DNA of 36,079 bases from a virus: the IMG/VR virus record IMGVR_UViG_3300032265_000047, positions 1 to 36,079 of that record; one strand, written 5' to 3'. Positions 11,291 through 33,434 of the stretch are shown piece by piece. A model generated the notes under the pieces. The model made no database searches. It saw only the letters and a list, made by a program, of their open reading frames with translations, and was not told where the DNA came from. The position numbers and the translations under genes were made by a program. The first letter of the stretch is position 1, and each line of letters opens with the position of its first letter.

Positions 11291-13678
11291 ATGTCACAAA
11301 TTGCATCGTTATCAGTAAAACTTGGCCTTGTTACAGTTGATTGGGATAAAGCAACCGACAAAGCAAAACAACAAGCCAAAGAATTACAAAAATCTTTTAA
11401 TGCTTTAGGCTCTGAATTAAAAACGCTTGCAGGTTTTTGGGCAAATCTTGGTGGCTCTGTAGGTTTGGGGTCTATTGGCCTTGGCGCATTGATTGCAGAA
11501 ACCGCTTCATTTGCAGACAGAATTGATGATTTATCTAAAGGCATGGGCATTAGTTCAGGTTTTGCACTTCAATTTAGCGATGCGCTTCAACAAGCTGGCG
11601 TTTCTGGTGATGCGGCTGGAAAAATTATTGGAAAATTGTTTTCTAGTATTGAAGAAGCAAAACTTGGCAATCAAGCATCAGTAGATCAATTTAGAAAAAT
11701 TGGTATTAGCTTTGATGAAATAAAACGTCTATCACCAGAAGATGCAATCAAACGTGTATTTTCAGCATTAAGCCAAATTGCAGACCCGATTGAACGTGTT
11801 GCAATGATGCGTAAACAATTGGGCAAAAGCGGCATTGGATTGGATGTTCAAGAAGTTGATGCAATTATTGCTGGTGGTATTGGTAATTGGCAAAAGTACG
11901 GCGATCAATTAGAAAAAGTCAGCAAAATAAAAGACAATCTTATTTCAAGTATGAATAACTTGACGATTGCTTTCAGCGCGTTTATTGCTCCATTGACTAG
12001 AGATGGCATTGTTTCGGTAGAAAAATTTCAAGCTGCTTTAGCGGGTATTGCTGTTTTCTTTGCAGTAAGCAAAATTGCGGCTGTTGTTGAAATGGGAACA
12101 GCTTTTTATGGTGTTGCAAAAGCATTGCTTGCAGTTGAGGGCGCGGCTATTGGTTTAAATTTAGCGGCTGGCGGCACTACTCCTATTGGAATACTACTTA
12201 AAGGCGGCGCGGCACTTGCGGCATTTATTGCTTATGACCAAGTATCTGGAAATGCAAAAGCAAGAGCTGAAAACAATGGTTTTCCCGGTCAGCCAACGGA
12301 TACATTAAAACGCTTGGGTATACAACCAAGTGAAGCTGGTGGCGGTAGAGGATCAATTAATCCGACTACTTCAGCCACTGGACAAGTTGACAGTTTAACT
12401 TTAGAAGAAACAAGCGCAAGCATGGCTTTGCTTGCTGAAAGAATTAAAACGCAACAAGCCGCTGTTCTTGCTTCAATTCCAATTTGGGATAAATACAAAA
12501 CACAGCTTGCATCTATTGACGCAGAAGCCATCAACGCAAGAGAGGCTTTAAAAGTTAAAACTGCTCAATTGCAAAATCAATATAAAGAAAACCCAACACT
12601 TCTTGGAATTGAACTTGCAAAATTAAAAGAACAAGGCAAACAAATTGATATAAATACTGCTCGTAAAAAACTTGAAGCTAAAACAGCGCAAGAAATTGCT
12701 TTATACGATCAAGAACGAGTCAGGCAAGAAAGTTATTTAAATGGTGTAATGACCATGAATGCAGAAACGCAACAGCGTAATCTGGAGCGCAATCAAAATA
12801 TTTTAAATGCAAATCTTAAAGAAATTGATTACGCTAAAGAATTGTTGCAACTTGAGATTGATTCAAATTCAGAATTAAGCACACATGAAAAAACTTTAGC
12901 CAAAGAATCATTAGATTATCAAAACAGTATTTCAAAATTGCAAGAACAATTAAGTGCTTTGCCTGATTATGTAACTGCATTGCCTGAAGAACAATTGTCA
13001 AAGGAAACTGAGTTAAACAATCAAAGAATTGACTCTATCAAAGCACAAATGACATTTGAAAACAAACGACATGATGCGCGGGTTACCAATTTGCAAAATG
13101 AAAGAACTTTTGAATATGGTATGAATTCAACGGTTACGCAATTGATGGATGATGCTTCTAACGCTGGAAAACTTGGTAGCGATATGGCCACATCTGTATT
13201 TGGAAACATGAATTCAGCATTGGACAATTTTACTAAAACAGGAAAACTATCATTTAAAGATTTTGCTCGAAGTGTTATTCAAGATTTAATTGCTATTCAA
13301 TTAAAAGCACAGGCTACAAGCATTCTCGGTTCTTTGTTTAAATCGCTTGGGTTTGGCGGTGGCGGTGGTTCAGGCAGCTACAGCCAAGGGGTTTCAGGTT
13401 ATGGCTCTGAATTTGCGGATGGAGGTTCTCCAACACCAAACACAATAAATCTTGTCGGTGAGCGCGGCCCTGAATTGTTTGTTCCTAAAACAGCGGGAAC
13501 AATTATTCCAAATAAAGCACTTTCAGGTATGGGTGGCACAACCAACGTGACCAACAATTACATTAATGCAATTGACACTAAGTCGTTTGAGCAACGTTTG
13601 CTTGGAAGTTCAAGCGCAATTTGGGCGGCTAACAAATACGGTGAGAAAAATCTTGCCTCAAGTTTTGGGAGAACGTAA
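11291..13678 (+). CDS. tape measure protein
   Basis: 795 aa, the longest gene before the tip region. Sets tail length and reaches the host envelope. Residues about 40-70 and 245-320 are Gly/Ala-rich and hydrophobic, as in membrane-active tape measures; residues about 370-600 are long coiled coil. The C-terminal part (KLSFKDFARSVIQDLIAIQLKAQ as two segments KLSFKDFARSVI and QDLIAIQLKAQ, then FGGGGGSGS and ERGPELFVP) is the standard lambda-type tape measure C-domain. At about 795 aa the rule of thumb of 1.5 angstrom per residue gives a tail near 120 nm. Confidence 0.93.
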   Translation: MSQIASLSVKLGLVTVDWDKATDKAKQQAKELQKSFNALGSELKTLAGFWANLGGSVGLGSIGLGALIAETASFADRIDDLSKGMGISSGFALQFSDALQQAGVSGDAAGKIIGKLFSSIEEAKLGNQASVDQFRKIGISFDEIKRLSPEDAIKRVFSALSQIADPIERVAMMRKQLGKSGIGLDVQEVDAIIAGGIGNWQKYGDQLEKVSKIKDNLISSMNNLTIAFSAFIAPLTRDGIVSVEKFQAALAGIAVFFAVSKIAAVVEMGTAFYGVAKALLAVEGAAIGLNLAAGGTTPIGILLKGGAALAAFIAYDQVSGNAKARAENNGFPGQPTDTLKRLGIQPSEAGGGRGSINPTTSATGQVDSLTLEETSASMALLAERIKTQQAAVLASIPIWDKYKTQLASIDAEAINAREALKVKTAQLQNQYKENPTLLGIELAKLKEQGKQIDINTARKKLEAKTAQEIALYDQERVRQESYLNGVMTMNAETQQRNLERNQNILNANLKEIDYAKELLQLEIDSNSELSTHEKTLAKESLDYQNSISKLQEQLSALPDYVTALPEEQLSKETELNNQRIDSIKAQMTFENKRHDARVTNLQNERTFEYGMNSTVTQLMDDASNAGKLGSDMATSVFGNMNSALDNFTKTGKLSFKDFARSVIQDLIAIQLKAQATSILGSLFKSLGFGGGGGSGSYSQGVSGYGSEFADGGSPTPNTINLVGERGPELFVPKTAGTIIPNKALSGMGGTTNVTNNYINAIDTKSFEQRLLGSSSAIWAANKYGEKNLASSFGRT

Positions 13679-14325: not shown

Positions 14326-14969
14326 CCACAACAATGAATGCTTTGGCAAGTTCATCAATCAATTACGGTGAATTTGTCAAGCTCACGACAAGCACTGACG
14401 TATATACATTTTGCAATGCTGCCGCACCCATTACGGTAAATGGAACAACTTACAGCAACTTGGGAAGCCTGTTAAGCATTGGCGACATTAAACGGGAAAT
14501 GAAAGCCACCAGCGCAGATTTAACGATGTCTTTAACTGGTGTGGATGGCTCAAACGTTGCCATTATTCTTGCGGCAAACATCAAAGGCTCTAAAGTTGAA
14601 GTTTGGCGCGGATTTTTTGATTCAAATAATCAAATTATTACAACACCAACTCAGCAATTCTTTAAACGGTATCAAGGATACGTTAGCAATTATTCAATTA
14701 CTGAAGATTGGAACGAACAATTGCGAATCAGGGTTGCAACTTGTTCAATTAGTTGCGCTTCATTTAGAACTATTTTACAAAACCGCATTGCAGGCATTAC
14801 AACAAATCCGGTAGTGTGGAAAAACTTTTATGCTAACGATACAAGCATGGACAGAGTTCCTGTTATTGCCGCCACTTATTTTGATTTTGGAAAGCCTCCA
14901 ATTGTAGGAAGTCAATCCACAACAGATGCGCCTTCTGAAGGTAATGGCGGTGGCGGCGGCGCTGAATGA
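14322..14969 (+). CDS. minor tail / tail hub protein
   Basis: 215 aa. N-terminal part YGEFVKLTTSTDVYTFCNAAA, followed by YSNLGSLLSIGDIKREMKAT and SLTGVDGSNVAIILAANIKG, resembles the DUF2163-like tail-hub arrangement: surface strand, short Gly turn, then a block describing element-by-element contacts. Cys residues at TCSISCAS may be structural. The C-terminus ends in a Gly-rich tail (GNGGGGGAE). It sits between the distal-tail-like protein and the GNAT gene, before the J-like protein. Likely part of the tip complex. Family link is tentative. Confidence 0.55.
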   Translation: MTTTMNALASSSINYGEFVKLTTSTDVYTFCNAAAPITVNGTTYSNLGSLLSIGDIKREMKATSADLTMSLTGVDGSNVAIILAANIKGSKVEVWRGFFDSNNQIITTPTQQFFKRYQGYVSNYSITEDWNEQLRIRVATCSISCASFRTILQNRIAGITTNPVVWKNFYANDTSMDRVPVIAATYFDFGKPPIVGSQSTTDAPSEGNGGGGGAE

Positions 14970-15415
14970 TAAGACAAGCTACAAGACACGATATACCAGT
15001 ATTGGTATGGATGATGAGCGAGTACGCTAAAGAAGCTCCAGTGCCTGTTTTAGCAAACCCTGAGAACCATAATGCGGCTCATGTTGGTAACTTGATATTT
15101 CAAATGCTTAACGGGCGTGGATTTATCTTGATTGATGATGATTACAGAGGCATGATTGCCGCAATCATTACCAAAAATGTGTGGTGTCCAAGAATACTTG
15201 AATTAAGAGAATTGGCTTGGTGGGTAATGCCAGAACATCGCGGCAAGTCAATTGGCGGCAGGTTGTGGGTAAAGTTTGATGAACTTGCACAAGATATGCT
15301 AAACAACAAACGGGTGGATTTTGTTTGCACAACTGTAATGGCAAACTCACCATTAATAGATTACACCAAGCGCGGATATAAACCGCTTGAAGCCACGTTT
15401 TTTAGGGATAAATAA
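14966..15415 (+). CDS. GNAT-family N-acetyltransferase
   Basis: 149 aa. A short GNAT fold: N-terminal MIRQATRHDIPVLVWMMSEY helix pair, then motif A near residues 84-101 (LAWWVMPEHRGKSIGGRLW) with the acetyl-CoA pyrophosphate loop HRGKSIGG, and C-terminal NSPLIDYTKRGYKPLE, typical of the last GNAT strands. It overlaps both neighbours (ATGA upstream; TAATG-type junction downstream) inside the tail-tip operon, in the slot where lambda carries its K (peptidase) and I genes. The substrate is unknown. Confidence 0.85.
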   Translation: MIRQATRHDIPVLVWMMSEYAKEAPVPVLANPENHNAAHVGNLIFQMLNGRGFILIDDDYRGMIAAIITKNVWCPRILELRELAWWVMPEHRGKSIGGRLWVKFDELAQDMLNNKRVDFVCTTVMANSPLIDYTKRGYKPLEATFFRDK

Positions 15416-20432: not shown

Positions 20433-23400
20433 ATGCAAATAAGCGTAGCAGTCACCGATGCAAACAACATCGTTTGCACAGTAGTTCCACCACAAACACA
20501 GACCATCACAATTGATCGTGGTGTTGCTGGCAACGGCATCGTAAGCATTGTTCCGGTAACAATATCCACGTTTCAATATCTGCGAATCACATACACCAAT
20601 GGCACAGTGTCCGATGTTGGCCCGTTGACCAGTACAGCCTACACAGCAACTTCACCAATCAGCATTGTTGGCAACACCATTTCATTGCTGACTGTACCAA
20701 TTGCATCAGGCGGCACAGCGGCAACAACGGCGGCGGCAGCTATTCAAAACCTGCTACCTTCATACACTGGCAACGGCTCCAAGCGGCTTGGCCTTAATTC
20801 TGGCGCGACTGCTTTGGAATGGGTTGCAGACGGTGGCGGCACAGTGACCAGTGTGGCCCTTTCTGGCGGCTCTACGGGGCTTACTACGTCAGGTGGCCCC
20901 ATCACTAGTTCAGGCACGATTACGCTGGCTGGAACGCTTGCTGTTGCCAATGGCGGTACAGGTCAAACAACGGCGGCGGCGGCAATTACTGCTTTGACTG
21001 GTACGCAAACAAACGCATATTATTTGCGCTCTAACGGTACAAACGCTACTTTGTCTGGTTTGGCTGCTGCTGATTTAACTGGTACTGTTTCAATTGCCAC
21101 AGGCGGCACAGGTCAAAACACTGCACAAGCGGCAATGAATGCTTTTGCAGGGGCGGTAACGTCTGGTTCATATTTGCGCGGCAATGGCACAAACGTTGTC
21201 TTGACAACCATTCAAGCGGGTGACGTTCCTACGCTTAACCAAAACACCACAGGCACAGCGGCCAACGTCACAGGCACAGTAGCAATTGGCAATGGCGGCA
21301 CAGGCGCAACGACAGCAGCAGCAGCACGAACAAACCTTGGCGCAACTACGGTTGGCGGCAATTTGTTTACGCTGACAAACCCATCCGCAATTACGTTCCC
21401 GCAATTTAATGCTGATAACACTGTTTCCGCATTGACAGCATCGGCTTTCCGCACAGCTATTGGCGCGGGTACGGGTGGAGGTTCGGTTACATCGGTTAGC
21501 GGCACTGGAACTGTTAACGGCTTGACCTTGACGGGCACAGTTACCACATCGGGAAGCCTGACCTTGGGCGGTACGCTTGATTTGTCTAGCCCACCCGCCA
21601 TTGGTGGAACAACACCAAGCACAGGCAAATTCACTAGCCTGACCAACACTGGCTTGACATCGGGCCGTGTGGTGTACTCCACTACAAACGGTCTTGAAAC
21701 TGACTCTGCCAACTTGCTGTACAGCGGTACTGACCTGACTGTTTACGGCCTTACAGTAGGCCGTGGTGCAGGTGCTGTGGCTACCAACACTGCGGTGGGT
21801 GCTAGTGCTTTGGCGGCTAATACAACAGGCAATCAAAGTGTATCTTTTGGTGACCGCGCTTTGTATTCAAATACAACAGGAGCTAATCAGACGGCTGTTG
21901 GTCAGCTTGCGTTGTATTCAAATACCACTGGTGGTAGCAACACTGGCTTGGGTCACGGAACATTGTTTGCAACAACTACAGGGTCATACAACACAGCAGT
22001 AGGTGACCTTGCCCTTAATGCCAACACCACAGCATCAAACAACACTGCTGTAGGTTATCAGGCGATGTATAGCAGTACAACAAGTGGAGCGCAAGGTGTT
22101 GCTGTTGGATTTCAAGCGGGTTACTCAAATAACGCTTTGTATTTCACAGGTATAGGATATCAAGCGGGTTACTCAAACACATCTGGCGCAACTGTGGTTG
22201 CAGTCGGTTATCAAGCTCTGTTCTCAAATACAACTGGGACAGACAACCTTGCTATTGGAGGCTATCAAACCTTATACGCAAACACAACTGGGTCAAGCAA
22301 CGTAGCAGTTGGTCGTCAAGCCCTCCAAGCCAACACCACAGCCTCCAACAACACTGCTGTAGGTTATCAGGCGGCTTACTCAAACACTGCCGCCAATGTC
22401 ACAGCGTTTGGTGCGGGTGCGCTTTATACCAACACCACTGGTACGTTAAACACCGCCATTGGTCAGCAATCTCTAAACAAGAACACAACTGGTTCTTCTA
22501 ACTCCGCTTCTGGTGTTAATGCGCTATATGCAAATACTACTGGGTCATACAATACCGCAATGGGGGACTCTGCACTCACCTCCAACACTACAGCCTCAAA
22601 CAACACTGCTGTAGGGTATCAGGCTGGGTACAGTAATACCACAGCATCCTACAACACCGCTAATGGTTGGAAATCTTTATACGCAAATACCACTGGTTCA
22701 TTTTTAGCCGCATTTGGTGAAGAAGCACTGTACGGAAATACAACTGGTGCATACAACACAGCAATGGGTTCACAAGCCCTTGCATCCAACACCACAGCCT
22801 CCTACAACACTGCGGTAGGACACACGGCTGCTTATTCCACGACCACGGGGCAATTCAACACTGCTGTTGGTCAAGAAACGTTTTATAACAACACTACGGG
22901 TTCAAACAATACGGCAATTGGTCGTGATGCACTTTCTTCAAACACCACCGCCTCGAATAACACCGCTGTGGGTTATCAGGCGGGATATGTAAACACCACA
23001 GGCGCTTCTAACATTGCTTTTGGTTATCAAGCGGGGCTCAATAATACTACGGGTTCATACAACACATTTGTAGGTTATGCTGCGGGAAATAATTTAACTA
23101 CGGGATCAAGTAATACTTATTTGGGATTTAACCCAGTAGCATCTTCCGTAAGTGTAACAAATGAATTGATTGTTACTACTGGAACAATAACTGGTAAAGG
23201 AGCAAATACAGGATATATCTATGCTGGTGGCGGTGGAACATACCAAGGAAACAATTCTGCCGCTTGGTCAATTACTTCTGACCAACGTCTGAAGAAAAAC
23301 ATTGTGGACAACACTGTTGGCTTGGAAGCTATCAACAAAATCCAAGTCCGCAACTTTGAATACCGTTTGCCAGAAGAAATTACAGAACTGGACAAATCAA

Positions 23401-23597
23401 ATGCAGTCAACATTGCTGGCGTTCAATTGGGTGCAATTGCCCAAGAACTTCAAGCCATTCTTCCTGACTGCGTTAAAACAGAATCCACTGGCGTTATGTC
23501 TGTAGATACAACCAACTTGACTTGGCATCTCATCAACGCCGTCAAAGAACTTTCCGCGCAGGTAGCGCAACTTCAATCCCAACTTAAAGGAGTCTAA
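20433..23597 (+). CDS. repeat-rich tail fibre with C-terminal S74 intramolecular chaperone
   Basis: 1054 aa adhesin. Residues about 90-320 carry GGTGQTTAAAA-type fibre repeats. Residues about 449-900 hold 26 tandem copies of a 16-18-residue unit (TAVGYQALYANTTGSNN-like) that should build a long trimeric beta-helix like YadA-head or bacterial adhesin stalks. The last about 105 residues, beginning SDQRLKKNI (Ser949), are the peptidase S74 chaperone found in endosialidase-type fibres, which helps trimerisation and then cuts itself off before that Ser. Good AAGGGGAAATC ribosome site; coupled to small downstream genes. Confidence 0.92.
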   Translation: MQISVAVTDANNIVCTVVPPQTQTITIDRGVAGNGIVSIVPVTISTFQYLRITYTNGTVSDVGPLTSTAYTATSPISIVGNTISLLTVPIASGGTAATTAAAAIQNLLPSYTGNGSKRLGLNSGATALEWVADGGGTVTSVALSGGSTGLTTSGGPITSSGTITLAGTLAVANGGTGQTTAAAAITALTGTQTNAYYLRSNGTNATLSGLAAADLTGTVSIATGGTGQNTAQAAMNAFAGAVTSGSYLRGNGTNVVLTTIQAGDVPTLNQNTTGTAANVTGTVAIGNGGTGATTAAAARTNLGATTVGGNLFTLTNPSAITFPQFNADNTVSALTASAFRTAIGAGTGGGSVTSVSGTGTVNGLTLTGTVTTSGSLTLGGTLDLSSPPAIGGTTPSTGKFTSLTNTGLTSGRVVYSTTNGLETDSANLLYSGTDLTVYGLTVGRGAGAVATNTAVGASALAANTTGNQSVSFGDRALYSNTTGANQTAVGQLALYSNTTGGSNTGLGHGTLFATTTGSYNTAVGDLALNANTTASNNTAVGYQAMYSSTTSGAQGVAVGFQAGYSNNALYFTGIGYQAGYSNTSGATVVAVGYQALFSNTTGTDNLAIGGYQTLYANTTGSSNVAVGRQALQANTTASNNTAVGYQAAYSNTAANVTAFGAGALYTNTTGTLNTAIGQQSLNKNTTGSSNSASGVNALYANTTGSYNTAMGDSALTSNTTASNNTAVGYQAGYSNTTASYNTANGWKSLYANTTGSFLAAFGEEALYGNTTGAYNTAMGSQALASNTTASYNTAVGHTAAYSTTTGQFNTAVGQETFYNNTTGSNNTAIGRDALSSNTTASNNTAVGYQAGYVNTTGASNIAFGYQAGLNNTTGSYNTFVGYAAGNNLTTGSSNTYLGFNPVASSVSVTNELIVTTGTITGKGANTGYIYAGGGGTYQGNNSAAWSITSDQRLKKNIVDNTVGLEAINKIQVRNFEYRLPEEITELDKSNAVNIAGVQLGAIAQELQAILPDCVKTESTGVMSVDTTNLTWHLINAVKELSAQVAQLQSQLKGV
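21780..23130 (+). repeat. in-frame tandem repeat array encoding the fibre shaft
   Basis: About 26 copies of a roughly 51-nt unit. At protein level each is T-A-V-G-x-x-A-L-x-x-N-T-T-G-x-x-N. At DNA level some copies are nearly identical, for example AACACTGCTGTAGGTTATCA recurs at about 22039 and 22351, indicating recent duplication or gene conversion. All length changes keep the frame. Confidence 0.9.
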
Positions 23598-24797: not shown

Positions 24798-25292
24798 ATG
24801 GAATGGTTAAAAGCACTTGCTCCAACAATCGCTTCGGCGCTAGGGGGTCCATTGGCTGGGCTTGCCGTTGAATCGCTTTCAAAAGCTATAGGTATAGACC
24901 CAAAGGACGTTCAAGCAACCATTGATAGCGGTAAGCTGTCTGCTGAACAAATTATGTCCATCAAGCAAGCAGAAATTGCTATGGCGGCTCGTGCCCAAGA
25001 GATGGGCCTAGACTTTGCCAAACTGTCCAATGATGACCGTAAGTCAGCTCGTGATATGCAAGTAGCAACCAAAAGTTGGATTCCCGCTGTTCTTGCTATT
25101 TCGGTCACAATCGGTTTCTTTGGTATTTTGATTGGCATGATGACCGAAACCTTTAAAACGTCTGATGCTTTGATGCTTATGCTGGGCAGTCTTGCTACGG
25201 CATGGACTGGAATCATTGGGTTTTTCTTTGGGAGCAGTGCATCAAGCCAAAATAAAGACGATCTTCTTCACCAATCTACACCCACAAAATGA
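24798..25292 (+). CDS. holin, GTA-type 3TM family
   Basis: 164 aa. Makes membrane holes that release the endolysin. Layout matches the GTA holin 3TM family: N-terminal hydrophobic helix (LAPTIASALGGPLAGLAVES), a middle segment with AEIAMAARAQEMG and DDRKSARDMQVATKSWIP, then two transmembrane helices (AVLAISVTIGFFGILIGMM and MLGSLATAWTGIIGFFFG). The SAR-M motif before the second helix is typical. Very strong ribosome site (TAAGGAGATTTT). It overlaps the endolysin gene by ATGA. Confidence 0.87.
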   Translation: MEWLKALAPTIASALGGPLAGLAVESLSKAIGIDPKDVQATIDSGKLSAEQIMSIKQAEIAMAARAQEMGLDFAKLSNDDRKSARDMQVATKSWIPAVLAISVTIGFFGILIGMMTETFKTSDALMLMLGSLATAWTGIIGFFFGSSASSQNKDDLLHQSTPTK

Positions 25293-27001: not shown

Positions 27002-27640
27002 TCAAATAAATTCATGTTGTTTACCAATTTCGCGGCAGATTTCTTCAAAATATTGCCTTGCGGCTTCTACTTTTGATTTAATCTTTTCCTCTATTGTCCG
27101 GTCACGCTCGTAATGCACAAGCGTCACCCGCAACTCTGGAATGATATGGTCAACAGAATGCAAAGACTGTTCTTCCCACTTCATTAAATCTTCCGGAGTG
27201 CTAACCATGCAATAAGCAATTGCGGCTTTAGGTTTGTCCCAGAGCCACATATACGCTCTTAATTGCATTTCGTAACCTTTGTCTTTACCATGTTCAGCAA
27301 TGGCTGGAAAAGTGGCAAGGCTCCAACTTGATTTGATGTCAATAATTGAATCCTCGGTAACAATGTCTGCTTCTCCGGTTATCCATTCATTTGTCTTGCG
27401 TTCTTTATTTTTCTTAAAATGCTTAAGAAGCACAGAGCCAAGCAAATCAATTGATTCATCTTCTACCCGTGTGCCTTTTTCAGTGTATTTAGATGAAAAC
27501 GGTTCGTTATAGCCGTAGATGATTTCCTTGGCTATCTTGGTAATTGCAGTCTTTGCGCCTACCGAAAGCACCTCATCTTTGCTTTTTGGGTCGGTCATAA
27601 TTTCCGACAAGCTGGATGCTCTAAATTTAATCGGGTTCAT
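27002..27640 (-). CDS. YqaJ/lambda-exonuclease-like recombination nuclease
   Basis: 212 aa PD-(D/E)xK nuclease. Seen: TEKGTRVEDESIDLLG (Glu60), ITGEADIVTEDSIIDIKSSWS with Glu90, Asp92, Asp101 and Lys103 (D-x-K), and the following YEMQLRAYMWLW helix, characteristic of YqaJ-type exonucleases. It resects double-strand ends to give 3' tails for the ERF annealing protein encoded just upstream, with which it overlaps by ATGA. The shared AAAGG-TAAATTATG start context is present at 27640. Confidence 0.87.
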   Translation of the reverse strand: MNPIKFRASSLSEIMTDPKSKDEVLSVGAKTAITKIAKEIIYGYNEPFSSKYTEKGTRVEDESIDLLGSVLLKHFKKNKERKTNEWITGEADIVTEDSIIDIKSSWSLATFPAIAEHGKDKGYEMQLRAYMWLWDKPKAAIAYCMVSTPEDLMKWEEQSLHSVDHIIPELRVTLVHYERDRTIEEKIKSKVEAARQYFEEICREIGKQHEFI

Positions 27641-28242
27641 AATTTACCTTTCATTTTGTCTTTTGCTGCAATAACTTTCTTTTGCCAATCTGGTGAGCCT
27701 GACGCATAAGAATAAGCCTTGATGTAAACCTTTCGCAAATCATCTTCCGTAGTTGTTGATTCAATTGCAGAAATATGGTCAAGCATGACGCTTAAATCAA
27801 TAGGGTCAAGGGGCATTACATCATGTGTTTCGTTTTCAGAGTTATTGCCTTCCGTAGGAATTGCAAACGCTTGAAAAGCCGCATATTTGTAAGCCGCCGA
27901 CATTGCTTTGTTTGTAGCCTTGTCGCCAGAATCCATTGCCTCGCCAAAAGTCTTCACGGTGTGCTTAGAACCGTCTTCAGCGCTTACAAAATCAAACTCT
28001 GCCTCTACGGTCACATAAAACAAATTGCCGCCCTTGGCGCTGATCCTGTCGGTACATTCACGGGTCAGCATACGGGGCAAGATACACAGCCCATGTTCAG
28101 CCAACAAAGGACTGATGGCGTTATACACATCATCAATGCCTCGAAACTTGTATCCAGACCCTTGCGAATTAACACGGTCTTTGGAAATGCCTGTCTTGGA
28201 CAACGCTAACTGTATGGCATTGATGGCTTGATAAACTTTCAT
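27637..28242 (-). CDS. erf: ERF-family single-strand annealing protein
   Basis: 201 aa. Anneals complementary single strands in phage recombination and replication. The ERF core is clear: GYKFRGIDDVYNAISPLLAEHG (written as GYKFRGIDDVYNA and ISPLLAEHG, residues about 30-51) and GEAMDSGDKATNKAMSAAYKYA (as GEAMDSGDKATNK and AMSAAYKYA, about 100-122). The C-terminal third is variable and acidic-helical. It forms a pair with the downstream exonuclease. Its last codons (MKGKL) also make the ribosome site of that gene. Confidence 0.93.
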   Translation of the reverse strand: MKVYQAINAIQLALSKTGISKDRVNSQGSGYKFRGIDDVYNAISPLLAEHGLCILPRMLTRECTDRISAKGGNLFYVTVEAEFDFVSAEDGSKHTVKTFGEAMDSGDKATNKAMSAAYKYAAFQAFAIPTEGNNSENETHDVMPLDPIDLSVMLDHISAIESTTTEDDLRKVYIKAYSYASGSPDWQKKVIAAKDKMKGKL

Positions 28243-28939: not shown

Positions 28940-29020
28940 TTAGCCTCTCCAAGCTAAAAGGATTGCAAACACAGTGCCGATGGCAATTGCGGCTAAAACG
29001 TCAAGGATTTGATCTTTCAT
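28940..29020 (-). CDS. 26-residue single-helix membrane peptide
   Basis: MKDQILDVLAA then IAIGTVFAILLAWRG: one transmembrane helix with a charged start and Arg near the end. It carries the full shared AGAAAGACAAATTATG start context and a leader hairpin upstream, and its last codons form the next gene's ribosome site. Length is small, but the context supports a real gene. Function unknown. Confidence 0.58.
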   Translation of the reverse strand: MKDQILDVLAAIAIGTVFAILLAWRG

Positions 29021-29048
29021 AATTTGTCTTTCTGGGGGCCAAAGCCCC
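29021..29048 (-). promoter_or_regulatory. leader hairpin plus shared ribosome site (copy 3)
   Basis: Read leftward: GGGGC (29048-29044), loop TTTG, GCCCC (29039-29035), then CAGAAAGACAAATT and the ATG at 29020. It lies between the stop at 29058 and the tiny membrane gene. No T-run follows, so it is more likely an mRNA-stabilising or translation-control hairpin than a terminator. Confidence 0.6.
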
Positions 29049-29057
29049 GTTGTTGAT

Positions 29058-29261
29058 TTAGAGCAACCCAACTTTACGCATTACAGCAGAGGCTATGCGT
29101 TCGCATTTATCAGAATTAATTTCGGGAAAATTGCACTCAATGTTGTAACCAAGGTTTTCAACATCCCATCCACCGCATGACTCTAAACAATTTTCGGCGT
29201 GAGTAACCGCATTACGAGTTACTTTAAATTTATCAATTCGTTCTATTTGATATGTGTTCAT
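29058..29261 (-). CDS. small early protein, Cys-containing
   Basis: 67 aa from ATG at 29261 (MNTYQIERIDKFKVTRNAVT); the longer frame from 29324 would cross the leader hairpin and lacks a ribosome site. Cys residues at positions about 26, 30, 45 and 54 (ENCLESCGG, IECNFPE, KCERIAS) might bind metal, but the spacing fits no known motif. Start has the shared AGAAAGACAAATT context. Confidence 0.68.
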   Translation of the reverse strand: MNTYQIERIDKFKVTRNAVTHAENCLESCGGWDVENLGYNIECNFPEINSDKCERIASAVMRKVGLL

Positions 29262-29289
29262 AATTTGTCTTTCTAGGGGCCGTAGCCCC
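29262..29289 (-). promoter_or_regulatory. leader hairpin plus shared ribosome site (copy 2)
   Basis: Read leftward: GGGGC (29289-29285), loop TACG, GCCCC (29280-29276), then TAGAAAGACAAATT and the ATG at 29261. The closing C-TACG-G is an extra-stable tetraloop, the same one as in the capsid terminator at 5848-5863. Same arrangement as at 29021-29048. Confidence 0.62.
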
Positions 29290-29296
29290 ATTTGGT

Positions 29297-29650: not shown

Positions 29651-29848
29651 ATGGAAAAATCTACCGCTATCAGGCTTGCAGGGTCACAAACCAAGTTAGC
29701 CGCCATTCTTGGCATCAGTCAAGCCGCTATCGCGCAATGGGGTGATGACGTCCCTATGATGCGTATTTATCAACTTAAATCTTTAAGACCACAATGGTTC
29801 AAAAACCTCGAGAAAAAATCCTTGCCGCCTTTACCAATGGGCCTATGA
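29651..29848 (+). CDS. Cro-like transcription regulator
   Basis: 65 aa. Short helix-turn-helix protein of the Cro/YdaS type: STAIRLAGSQTKLAAILGIS then QAAIAQWGDDVPMMRIYQLK, with the recognition helix near residues 22-31 (SQAAIAQWGD) and a typical C-terminal aromatic pair (RPQWF). It sits next to the divergent control region with inverted repeats. Probably represses the leftward promoter or its own. No CI partner is found in the window. The next gene overlaps its 3' end by 55 nt in another frame. Confidence 0.85.
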   Translation: MEKSTAIRLAGSQTKLAAILGISQAAIAQWGDDVPMMRIYQLKSLRPQWFKNLEKKSLPPLPMGL

Positions 29849-30275: not shown

Positions 30276-31094
30276 ATGAAGCGACCGTCGTTTCAGTTTT
30301 ATCCAGCCGATTGGCTGCGGGATACAGCACTTAGATCATGTTCAACAGGTGCACGGGGATTGTGGATAGACATGATCTGTTTCATGCACGAAGGTAATCC
30401 CTATGGACATCTTAAGGTTGGCAACAAGGTTATCCTTCCGCCCAACCTTGCAGGCATGGTCGGGGCAACTTTACTAGATGTTCAAGGTTGGCTAGATGAA
30501 TTACATCAGTCTGGCGTTTACGAATTGGGTGAAGATGGAGAAATCTTTTCTAAGCGCATGGTCAGAGACGAATGCTTGCGAAACAAGAGGGCAGAAGGTG
30601 GAAAGCTAGGTGGTAACCCCGCATTGAAGGTTAACCATGAGGATAACCCCAAGGTTGAAATTGAGGATAAACAAAAACCAACCCCTTCATCTTCATCTTC
30701 TTCTTCATCTTCTTCTTCATCTTCAGATATTGAAGAAGGTAAACCTTCTTTGTCCACAGCAAAGCTGATGGCCTGTCCGCAAAAGGAAATTTTGAATCTT
30801 TGGGCAAAGCATCTGCCGCACTTGGCACAGCCGCGAAGTTGGGAAGGAACTCGCAGAGCCAACACTAAGCAACGGTGGAATCAGGCCAGCAAGCCGAGCG
30901 CATACAGCCCAGAGGGTTACCAGACCGAGGAGGCGGGAATTAAGTGGTGGGATAGTTTTTTTGGCTACATTGCAAAAGACACGAGTTTGTCTAACGGGTT
31001 TGAATCGCAAGGCAGAACATGGCGACCAGACCTTGAATGGGTAGTCAACGCAACAAATTTTCAAAAAATCATTGATGGGAAATATTCAAAATGA
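30276..31094 (+). CDS. replication initiator, lambda O-like / DUF1376-like
   Basis: 272 aa. N-terminal DNA-binding domain opens with FQFYPADWLRDTALRSCSTG, then ARGLWIDMICFMHEG and PYGHL, the usual pattern of phage O-like initiators (winged helix, residues about 5-115). A 13-Ser linker (about residues 138-150) joins it to a C-terminal domain (about 160-272) that would contact host replication proteins. Ribosome site GGAG at 30264. No phage helicase, helicase loader or polymerase is recognised, so host enzymes are probably used. It overlaps the next gene by ATGA. Confidence 0.82.
   Translation: MKRPSFQFYPADWLRDTALRSCSTGARGLWIDMICFMHEGNPYGHLKVGNKVILPPNLAGMVGATLLDVQGWLDELHQSGVYELGEDGEIFSKRMVRDECLRNKRAEGGKLGGNPALKVNHEDNPKVEIEDKQKPTPSSSSSSSSSSSSSDIEEGKPSLSTAKLMACPQKEILNLWAKHLPHLAQPRSWEGTRRANTKQRWNQASKPSAYSPEGYQTEEAGIKWWDSFFGYIAKDTSLSNGFESQGRTWRPDLEWVVNATNFQKIIDGKYSK
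30627..30727 (+). other. candidate replication origin inside the O-like gene
   Basis: Two adjoining 22-nt direct repeats (30627-30648 and 30651-30672), sharing AAGGTT at the start and GAGGATAA near the end (17 of 22 bases equal, 24-nt period), are followed by a nearly pure pyrimidine/A tract of TCA and TCT codons (about 30685-30727). Iterons plus a skewed, easily opened tract in the middle of an O gene recall the lambda origin. The tract also codes for the Ser linker, so this is a hypothesis. Confidence 0.35.
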
Positions 31095-31315
31095 CATTTG
31101 CTAAACCAACTCCAAAGCCTGAAGAAGACGTTTCTTATTCACGTTATTGCTCAATTAACAATTGTCAAAACATTTGGGCGATTCACATAAGCGGAGACAA
31201 GCCAAAATGTTCTTACCATCAATGGCTGAACAGCGGTAAAGCAAAGCCAGCGCCAATTCTTGCAAATTATCCAAAAAAAGTTAAAAAAGCATGGTATGAC
31301 GAGGTGGAATTTTGA
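31091..31315 (+). CDS. small zinc-finger-like protein after the replication gene
   Basis: 74 aa. Cys20, Cys25, His32, Cys40 and His43 (YCSINNCQNIWAIHISG and PKCSYHQW) look like a small zinc site. Pro/Lys-rich ends. It overlaps the O-like gene by ATGA and the next frame by TTGA. Probably a DNA-binding replication accessory; no known family recognised. Confidence 0.72.
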   Translation: MTFAKPTPKPEEDVSYSRYCSINNCQNIWAIHISGDKPKCSYHQWLNSGKAKPAPILANYPKKVKKAWYDEVEF

Positions 31316-31590
31316 CCAATGAACAAGCCAACCGAATCCTTGACCGAGCCAAAGAAGGCCAGCAATTTAGCCCTTTTGTCATTAACCGAGCGCTTGAACT
31401 TACGGGAGACTATGAACCAAATGGAAGCGGTGGAATGGATACGCCGTTACAAAAAGAAAATAAGGGAGGACGGGAAGAAAGAAGCCTTTTATTGGTGGCA
31501 AACAACATTAGAAGACATTGCGAAAAAACGGGGCCAGAAAGCGGCAGAGGAATTACGGGAACGCATGAACGCACTGAAGGAACAAAATGA
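31312..31590 (+). CDS. hypothetical replication-region protein (overlapping frame A)
   Basis: Up to 92 aa from a TTG that overlaps the upstream stop (TTGA). The first 45 residues (TNEQANRILDRAKEGQQFSP, then FVINRALELTGDYEPNGSG) read like real protein with a helix-turn-helix character. After about residue 45 the frame overlaps the better-looking frame B (31412-31594) and turns Gly/Arg-rich and less convincing. The true gene may be short, dual coding, or joined to frame B by frameshifting. Confidence 0.5.
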   Translation: MTNEQANRILDRAKEGQQFSPFVINRALELTGDYEPNGSGGMDTPLQKENKGGREERSLLLVANNIRRHCEKTGPESGRGITGTHERTEGTK

Positions 31591-31594
31591 TTAG
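31412..31594 (+). CDS. small helical charged protein (overlapping frame B)
   Basis: 60 aa from ATG at 31412 with GGGAG about 5 nt upstream. MNQMEAVEWIRRYKKKIRED, then GKKEAFYWWQTTLEDIAKK and RGQKAAEELRERMNALKEQ form amphipathic helices with a WW pair, a plausible small phage replication-region protein. It overlaps the VRR-NUC gene by 8 nt. An in-frame upstream ATG (31319) adds a stretch that looks like a shadow of frame A, so it was not chosen. Confidence 0.62.
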   Translation: MNQMEAVEWIRRYKKKIREDGKKEAFYWWQTTLEDIAKKRGQKAAEELRERMNALKEQND

Positions 31595-31856
31595 ACGGGC
31601 AGCAAGGATAGACGCTAATCAAACAGCGGTGGTCAGCGCATTGCGAGCCGCTGGCGCATACGTCTGGATTATTGGCCTGCCAGTTGACCTTTTGGTCGGC
31701 TACAAAGGCCACAGCTTTCTGGTTGAGGTTAAAAATGGCCCTAGAAAGCGTTTAACGGCGCTACAAGAGGACTTTTTTGATAATTGGTCTGGTAGTACGT
31801 TGGCAAGGATTGATGGCCCTGAAGCGGCTTTAAGAATGATTGGAGTTATCAAATGA
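31587..31856 (+). CDS. VRR-NUC domain nuclease
   Basis: 89 aa, a complete minimal VRR-NUC domain of the PD-(D/E)xK superfamily. DANQTAVVSALRAAGAYVW is the opening helix, GLPVDLLVGYKG gives Asp34, FLVEVKNG gives Glu47-x-Lys49, and LTALQEDFFDNW is the usual helix with Gln. Stand-alone phage members cut branched DNA such as Holliday or flap structures. It overlaps both neighbours by short ATGA-type junctions. Confidence 0.9.
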   Translation: MIRRAARIDANQTAVVSALRAAGAYVWIIGLPVDLLVGYKGHSFLVEVKNGPRKRLTALQEDFFDNWSGSTLARIDGPEAALRMIGVIK

Positions 31857-32530
31857 TTCACTATCACGGAACACCAATCAGTCCCATTAAAGCCATTGAG
31901 ACAATGGGCGGCAAACACTTTTGTGTTTCTTATGCCCGTCCTGATGATCTTAAAAGATGTTTGCGTTTGGGGCAGTCTTTAATGTTAGACAACGGTGCAT
32001 TTAGTGCCAAAACACGGGGATTACCATTTGACATAAATGGATTTTATGAATGGGTTGAGCCATTGTTGGCACATCCACATTGGGCAGTTGTTCCTGATGT
32101 GATAGATGGCACAGTTGAGCAACAAAAAGAAATGGTCAAAACTTGGCCTTTTCGCAAAGAATTTGGAATTCCTGTTTGGCATTTGGGTATGCCAATTTCG
32201 TACCTTTTGGAATTGTCAGATACATGGGGCAAAGTTTGCTTTGGTTCAAGTGGCGAGTATTGGCAAATTGGAACGCCCAAATGGTCAGGAAAAATGGATG
32301 AGGCTTTTAATATTTTGACCAAAACTTTTGGGAAACTGCCTTGGATTCATGGTTTGCGAATGCTTGGTTTGTCTGCTGGCCCGTGGCCTTTAGCAAGCGC
32401 AGATTCAACAAATGTTGCATTGCACCATGCAGAAGGTATTGTTTGTGCTGGTTGCATGACAAAAAGGATTGATTCAACCAACCCCACAAGTCTTTGGGAA
32501 CAAAAACCTTTACAGGAAATACTTTTATGA
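31853..32530 (+). CDS. DpdA-like 7-deazaguanine DNA transglycosylase (compact)
   Basis: 225 aa with the TGT/DpdA-fold landmarks in order: LMLDNGAFSAK (Asp46, like the DSGGF Asp of tRNA-guanine transglycosylases), VVPDVIDGT (Asp82), IPVWHLGMPISYLLE (like the VPVLQG-YL block), VCFGSSGEY (like GLGSVCRR), IHGLRML, then LASADSTN with Asp184, the likely nucleophile, and CAGC (198-201). Such enzymes swap guanine in phage DNA for a deazaguanine base, protecting it from restriction. It is shorter than most DpdA proteins. The next gene is a preQ0-type transporter, which supports the call. Confidence 0.68.
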   Translation: MIHYHGTPISPIKAIETMGGKHFCVSYARPDDLKRCLRLGQSLMLDNGAFSAKTRGLPFDINGFYEWVEPLLAHPHWAVVPDVIDGTVEQQKEMVKTWPFRKEFGIPVWHLGMPISYLLELSDTWGKVCFGSSGEYWQIGTPKWSGKMDEAFNILTKTFGKLPWIHGLRMLGLSAGPWPLASADSTNVALHHAEGIVCAGCMTKRIDSTNPTSLWEQKPLQEILL

Positions 32531-33015
32531 TTTTGGCTTTAATTACTTATGCTGTGGCAATGACCTTGGCAAACCTATTAGTGGCAACATTTGGCCCATC
32601 AATCAGTCCTATAAACGCTTTTTTCTTTATTGGATTAGACCTGACGTTAAGGGATTGGCTTCATGTTCGCCTTAAAACATGGCAAATGGGCGGGTTGATT
32701 GTAGGAACAGGGGCATTGACTTACTTGTTAAACCCTGCTGCTGGAATGATTGCAATTGCTTCTTCTGTTTCGTTTACTGCCGCATCTGTTGTTGATTGGG
32801 CTGTGTTTGCAAAACTAACAGGCACATGGATTAAACGAGCAAACGGTAGCAACATTGCTGGTGCTGCTGTTGACAGCGTTGTGTTTCCAACATTGGCTTT
32901 TGGTGTGCTGATGCCGCAAATTGTTGTTATGCAATTTTTTGCCAAAGTTGTTGGCGGCGTTTTTTGGGCTTACGTTATTTCCAAATCGTCACGTTTGATT
33001 GGGGTTGTTAAATGA
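32527..33015 (+). CDS. VUT/YhhQ-family queuosine-precursor transporter
   Basis: 162 aa membrane protein from ATG at 32527 (ATGA overlap with the DpdA-like gene, AGGA upstream); a longer reading from 32494 is less likely. Five to six hydrophobic helices. Family marks: ANLLVATFGPSISPINAFFF, GLDLTLRDWLHVRL, NPAAGMIAIASSVSFTAAS, and GSNIAGAAVDSVVFPTLAFG. Bacterial YhhQ imports preQ0/preQ1 bases. Next to a DpdA-like enzyme, and with no preQ0 biosynthesis genes in the window, it would supply the modified base. It overlaps NinB by ATGA. Confidence 0.83.
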   Translation: MILALITYAVAMTLANLLVATFGPSISPINAFFFIGLDLTLRDWLHVRLKTWQMGGLIVGTGALTYLLNPAAGMIAIASSVSFTAASVVDWAVFAKLTGTWIKRANGSNIAGAAVDSVVFPTLAFGVLMPQIVVMQFFAKVVGGVFWAYVISKSSRLIGVVK

Positions 33016-33434
33016 TTTTTCATCTGCAAACACCTGAACAAGCATCCGCATTGATGGCAAAGATTTGGCCCAAGGTCAAAGACAGTTTAAAAGCCGGAAA
33101 ACTGTTGCGGATGGAGATCAAAGCCGAGTCCAAAAGCCGTGACCAAGAGGAAAAATATCACGCAATGCTTGGGGAAATAGCCGAGCAAGCTAGTCACATA
33201 GGCGCTAAGTGGGACGCTGAAGATTGGAAACGCTTGCTTGTGGATAAGTTTGTTAGGGAAGAATTAAGTGAAGTTACTAAAGTTATCCCAAATCTTGATA
33301 ACAATGGAATTGTGCAATTAGGATTGCAAACCCGCAATTTCACCAAAGAGCAAGCAATGGATTTCATTACGTTTTTGGAAGCATGGGGAGCCAACAACGG
33401 AATTATTTTTAAAAATGTTGTACAAACCGTATAA
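33012..33434 (+). CDS. ninB: NinB-like recombination protein
   Basis: 140 aa. Matches lambda NinB (Orf): N-terminal basic strand-helix, then SKSRDQEEKYHAMLGEIAEQ, the family-typical ALLGDIA-like block, GAKWDAEDWKRLLVDKF, and C-terminal FTKEQAMDFITFLEAWGANN. Lambda Orf binds single-stranded DNA and SSB and aids RecF-type recombination. It overlaps the transporter gene by ATGA and ends just before a promoter at 33419-33447. Confidence 0.92.
   Translation: MIFHLQTPEQASALMAKIWPKVKDSLKAGKLLRMEIKAESKSRDQEEKYHAMLGEIAEQASHIGAKWDAEDWKRLLVDKFVREELSEVTKVIPNLDNNGIVQLGLQTRNFTKEQAMDFITFLEAWGANNGIIFKNVVQTV

Follow-up and report, generated by a model that had tools for sequence, protein, structure and literature searches.

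The closest described systems are those of phages with a DpdA, an enzyme of the 7-deazaguanine DNA transglycosylase family. DpdA chemistry, phages in which DpdA is the only gene of the pathway and Vut_1-type transporters in preQ0-making phages are all already known (PMC6884629, PMC8306585, PMC6266253, PMC8310023). In phage CAjan, dpdA is required for modification (PMC6884629). The validated DpdA of phage 9g is 317 aa long and is accompanied by a full local pathway (FolE, QueD, QueE and Gat-QueC-type genes); its His196 is a residue that DpdA keeps and DpdA2 lacks (Hutinet 2019, PMC6884629). Phage MED16 has dADG in its DNA with DpdA as the only pathway gene, at ~0.13% of G, and the restriction enzymes tried on this DNA were not visibly hindered (PMC8306585). 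According to Hutinet 2019, dpdA phages without synthesis genes are the largest group whose modification cannot be predicted, and YhhQ homologues occur in some phages without correlation with any phage group (PMC6884629). Phages Vid5 (PMC6266253) and EC151 (PMC8310023) carry a Vut_1-type transporter alongside most or all of the preQ0 synthesis genes.

We have analysed IMG/VR virus record IMGVR_UViG_3300032265_000047, the whole of which (36,079 bases) is called the window here. The record is classed as linear, and an end may be missing. Its early genes include, on the plus strand, one for a predicted compact DpdA of 225 aa (31853-32530) and one for a Vut_1/YhhQ-type membrane transporter of 162 aa (32527-33015), a probable importer of 7-deazaguanine precursor. 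The two frames overlap by ATGA (32527-32530), as the original prediction, made from the sequence, had described when it named them a possible pair for salvage-only 7-deazaguanine DNA modification. A two-gene salvage module for the modification of phage DNA is, to our mind, the best explanation of the locus, with a probability of roughly 0.72, and the pair is a real and conserved module, probably of this kind. Like Vid5 and EC151, the window has a Vut_1-type transporter with a 7-deazaguanine gene; unlike them, it belongs to a group with no preQ0 synthesis gene.

Against the PHROGs, the 225-aa protein matches phrog_887 (queuine tRNA-ribosyltransferase; E=1.5e-44), a family that also takes in the validated DpdA of 9g (E=2e-98) and the DpdA of MED16 (E=3e-70). 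No match to the protein was found in Pfam, in NCBIfam or in sequence searches of the PDB, and the Pfam TGT model PF01702 has no match in the record or among 57 diverse members of the family, which were aligned and are 39-81% identical to the window protein. MED16-type DpdAs are its closest characterised relatives (~38-40% identity over 83-100% of the query; hhalign E=1.6e-50 for MED16 DpdA); they too come with no reported biosynthesis genes, but no transporter is annotated beside the MED16 dpdA (PMC8306585). Profile alignment to 9g DpdA pairs LDNGAF with LDSGAF, PVWH with PCFH, WIHG with KVHG and ASADST with SCDSS, so that D46 and D184 fall on LDSGAF and SCDS, H110 on H141 and H166 on His196. 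Every landmark named in the original prediction is present, and D46, D82, H110, G131, S132, H166, R169, D184 and S185 are invariant across the 57 sequences, H166 being the DpdA-type histidine. By analogy, D46 and D184 are putatively the two catalytic aspartates of the TGT superfamily. The protein differs from 9g DpdA in its length and in its company, which is a transporter and no synthesis gene. Its small size had been taken for a special reduction. We dropped this idea, since subgroup relatives are of similar length (~220-260 aa; 261 aa in MED16 DpdA) and 225 aa is normal for this DpdA subgroup.

An AlphaFold model built with the diverse 57-sequence alignment (pLDDT 91.8) is a TIM barrel with eight strands in barrel order, and it places D46, H110, H166 and D184 on strands 3, 5, 7 and 8; an earlier run with 25 close relatives reached a pLDDT of 41 and was discarded. 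Foldseek comparison of the model with the PDB gave weak generic barrels only. Upon realignment with VIA-align, TGT-family structures came out on top (Z 13.7-14.8 over ~200-214 residues), with Cap10, an archaeal TGT and the Zymomonas TGT as the leading rows, in agreement with a (beta/alpha)8 barrel of the TGT type. Absence of such a barrel, or of any TGT/DpdA hit, had been named beforehand as counting against the reading; the barrel and the phrog_887 match were both found, and the reading is not refuted. By sequence and modelled fold, the 225-aa protein is thus classed as a DpdA, which by analogy with its relatives would act on DNA.

The partner protein has several hydrophobic segments and scores 38.6 bits against Pfam Vut_1 (PF02592), above the curated cut-off of 27.2; among the PHROGs it matches phrog_4899 (E=2.8e-34). 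The profile of its family aligns with E. coli YhhQ (QPTR, COG1738), also a PF02592 protein, over 119 columns (probability 90%, E=1.5e-6), in line with the VUT/YhhQ-type assignment first proposed for it. It is distantly related to this importer of preQ0 and preQ1. It differs from YhhQ in length (162 versus 221 aa) and in falling below the cut-off of NCBIfam TIGR00697, the queuosine precursor transporter equivalog (14 bits versus 50.95). Substrates differ among members of the Vut_1 family, and import of preQ0 or preQ1 is our best guess from the sequence relationship.

The pairing of the two genes was assessed in loci gathered with dpdA alone as the query: 80 viral loci near the window (clade I), 80 viral loci in clade II and 32 loci in bacterial genomes, which are probably prophages. 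A locus was taken as informative if it extended 900 bases or more to each side of dpdA, and a neighbour was counted if it lay within 1.2 kb on the same strand. The transporter is beside dpdA in 54 of 63 informative loci of clade I and in 62 of 67 of clade II, and more than 100 related viruses have both genes together, with no genes for making the base. The other neighbours of dpdA in the window, NinB (18/63) and a small nuclease (16/63), accompany it less often in clade I and never in clade II (0/67 each). In clade I the transporter is downstream of dpdA; in clade II it can be on either side of it. Some phages with DpdAs 82-91% alike have transporters that share as little as 42-50% identity, which indicates that the transporter has been exchanged while the pairing was retained. 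Adjacent copies are also found in isolated phages, namely Pectobacterium PEAT2, siphovirus Tbat1_6 and Acinetobacter AB3P2; one small gene separates the two in Pseudanabaena Pam5, and in Rhizobium RHph_X2_30 a DUF165 gene (DUF165 being the older name of Vut_1) lies upstream of dpdA, two small genes away. Both genes are under purifying selection (dN/dS 0.02-0.13 for dpdA and 0.11-0.21 for the transporter, where dS is unsaturated), and so are not a product of chance. Thus, dpdA and transporter form a conserved module among otherwise variable neighbours.

The ATGA overlap, which the original prediction had read as coupling, is real, and yet it is not specific to the pair. The same type of overlap joins 30276-31094 to 31091-31315, 31587-31856 to 31853-32530 and 32527-33015 to 33012-33434. 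Since neighbouring genes overlap alike, the overlap is a property of the early-gene run and no evidence for the pair as such, and we dropped it as proof of coupling.

Loci without the transporter are informative in another way. In four of them (Caulobacter phage DMCA, L099, L184 and L210) QueD abuts dpdA, and other exceptions have the small nuclease or a RusA-like resolvase (named from sequence) after dpdA. That precursor uptake and precursor synthesis can trade places at one position is our strongest argument for a transporter working on behalf of the enzyme. Among the transporter-less loci, a frame for a 6-carboxytetrahydropterin synthase-like QueD was located directly upstream of dpdA at L099:1424-1855, L184:1397-1912, L210:887-1255 and L267:3705-4001. 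Other transporter-less loci of clade I have a PP-loop (PAPS-reductase-like) protein with a CISFSGGRTS motif between dpdA and NinB (L038:5711-6562, L040:5550-6398, L045:2464-3282). A DNA cytosine methyltransferase-like gene with an ELALFAG motif also occurs upstream of dpdA where the transporter is missing (L038:3392-4183, L039:4751-5575, L040:3342-4163, L045:289-1083); there it shares its stretch of DNA in part with a further long ORF that is read in a different frame.

With regard to precursor supply, models for QueC, QueD, FolE and radical SAM proteins (PF06508, PF01242, PF01227, PF04055) have no match in the 36-kb record, which is linear and may be incomplete; FolE, QueD, QueE and QueC are accordingly all missing from it, as had been noted at first for preQ0 biosynthesis genes. 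No QueD was found in 49 related records. QueC-like matches in three of the related records are weak and partial: they span no more than the 59-66 leading positions of the model, within frames that are longer, and were read as PP-loop/PAPS-reductase-like rather than QueC. Proteins similar to the PP-loop protein of the clade I loci give these hits.

The supply on the host side was considered in 31 genomes that carry a relative, six of which have neither QueD nor a full-length QueC. The transporter is beside dpdA in 5/6 of these genomes versus 6/25 of the others (Fisher p=0.013 overall; p=0.033 for Alphaproteobacteria only). The transporter is therefore commoner where the host is without preQ0 synthesis genes, a trend that is suggestive only, given that the genomes are non-independent and several are MAGs. 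Searching 385 genomes from a single class in order to enlarge the test returned the centre genome only, and the test stays at 31. The genome locus closest to the window is on a 9.7-kb contig of a betaproteobacterial MAG with QueC and TGT, in which QueD was not found, so that the window phage may infect a host with some precursor synthesis of its own. The salvage-only description fits the record, in which no synthesis gene was found. Among relatives, the transporter is also carried in genomes with QueC, where it would boost supply and not be the sole source.

Under the salvage reading, the Vut_1 protein would sit in the inner membrane of the host and raise the level of preQ0 or preQ1 as the free 7-deazaguanine base. 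The compact DpdA would then put this base into phage DNA in place of guanine, through a base exchange of the TGT type; by comparison with TGT, Asp184 is the likely nucleophile and Asp46 probably serves as the acid/base. The DNA would thereby be protected against host nucleases, even if the modification is perhaps as sparse as in related phages that have DpdA only. The MED16 analogy suggests that the level of modification may be low, and the little dADG and lack of visible protection in that phage leave the benefit of modification unclear.

The fold would also suit an enzyme that puts the imported base on another target, either tRNA, in the manner of TGT, or protein. The leading structural row, tied with tRNA TGTs (Z ~14), is Cap10 of type IV CBASS (9ntn; Z 14.8 at 3.4 A over 214 residues), which belongs to the TGT family and attaches a deazaguanine to a protein (PMC11996544). 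We consider another target unlikely because the sequence groups with the DpdAs of 9g and MED16 and keeps the DpdA histidine, and because the record has no Pfam TGT match. Cap10 moreover acts within a defence operon, whereas PHROGs and Pfam models matched no CBASS-like gene in the neighbours covered, and nearly all bacterial genomes carrying relatives have a full TGT of their own. The location of both genes in a run of overlapping early genes, the varied substrates of Vut_1 members and the occurrence of dpdA without the transporter in ~14% of clade I loci could instead mean that the two are independent early-region accessories, in which case the transporter would import an unrelated nutrient and the pairing would reflect shared transfer. 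This explanation is rated lower still: it does not account for a pairing that two distant clades share, that occurs in either gene order and that outlasts both the swapping of transporter variants and changes in the other neighbours, nor for the same-pathway QueD beside dpdA in some transporter-less loci.

Least probable of all, and in our estimate quite improbable, is that the transporter mainly raises queuosine in host tRNA during infection, with DpdA retaining a minor or decayed activity. A tRNA-queuosine role has been proposed for phages that have pathway genes and no DpdA (Hutinet 2019, PMC6884629). Here, strong purifying selection on DpdA and the invariance of its active-site residues argue against decay; the transporter is the gene that varies, and dpdA, having served as the query, is present in every locus. 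The salvage module for phage DNA modification is accordingly the reading that we prefer.

Three things appear to be new, part of which recent literature may already cover: in a compact DpdA subgroup that has no synthesis genes, dpdA and the transporter are almost always paired; QueD can take the place of the transporter; and the presence of the transporter shows a trend with the host. Somewhat short of an even chance is given to a broader proposal: that DNA modification run wholly on scavenged base, through a mobile module of DpdA and importer, is a widespread strategy, with DpdA plus QueD or DpdA alone replacing the module according to the ability of the host to make preQ0. If true, the chemistry of phage DNA would depend on 7-deazaguanines shared within the microbial community. 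The linkage found here also directs attention to many environmental phages whose DNA may contain 7-deazaguanines obtained by cross-feeding. Whether a phage imports a base for the modification of its own genome is now a direct and testable question.

The rest of the record has the layout of a lambda-like tailed phage. The terminase gene (64-2177) is accompanied by portal, protease and head genes, and genes for a tape measure protein (at 11291), a tail fibre (at 15415) and an endolysin (at 25289) are also present. An exonuclease and an Erf-like protein are encoded on the minus strand (27002-28242), a repressor gene lies at 29651, and an HNH endonuclease lies at the end of the record. An O-like replication protein (30276-31094) is encoded ahead of the dpdA/transporter pair and NinB (33012-33434) after it. 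One tail protein (20433-23597) carries an S74 endosialidase-type chaperone at its C-terminus, and its gene contains many 51-nt repeats. The gene of a GNAT acetyltransferase-like protein (14966-15415; PF00583 over the cut-off) has baseplate-type genes on one side and tail-fibre genes on the other. A 36-nt direct repeat (29016-29051 and 29257-29292, 89% alike) in the control region that lies upstream of the repressor is a possible operator or terminator pair. A run of ~13 serines is located inside the O-like replication protein.
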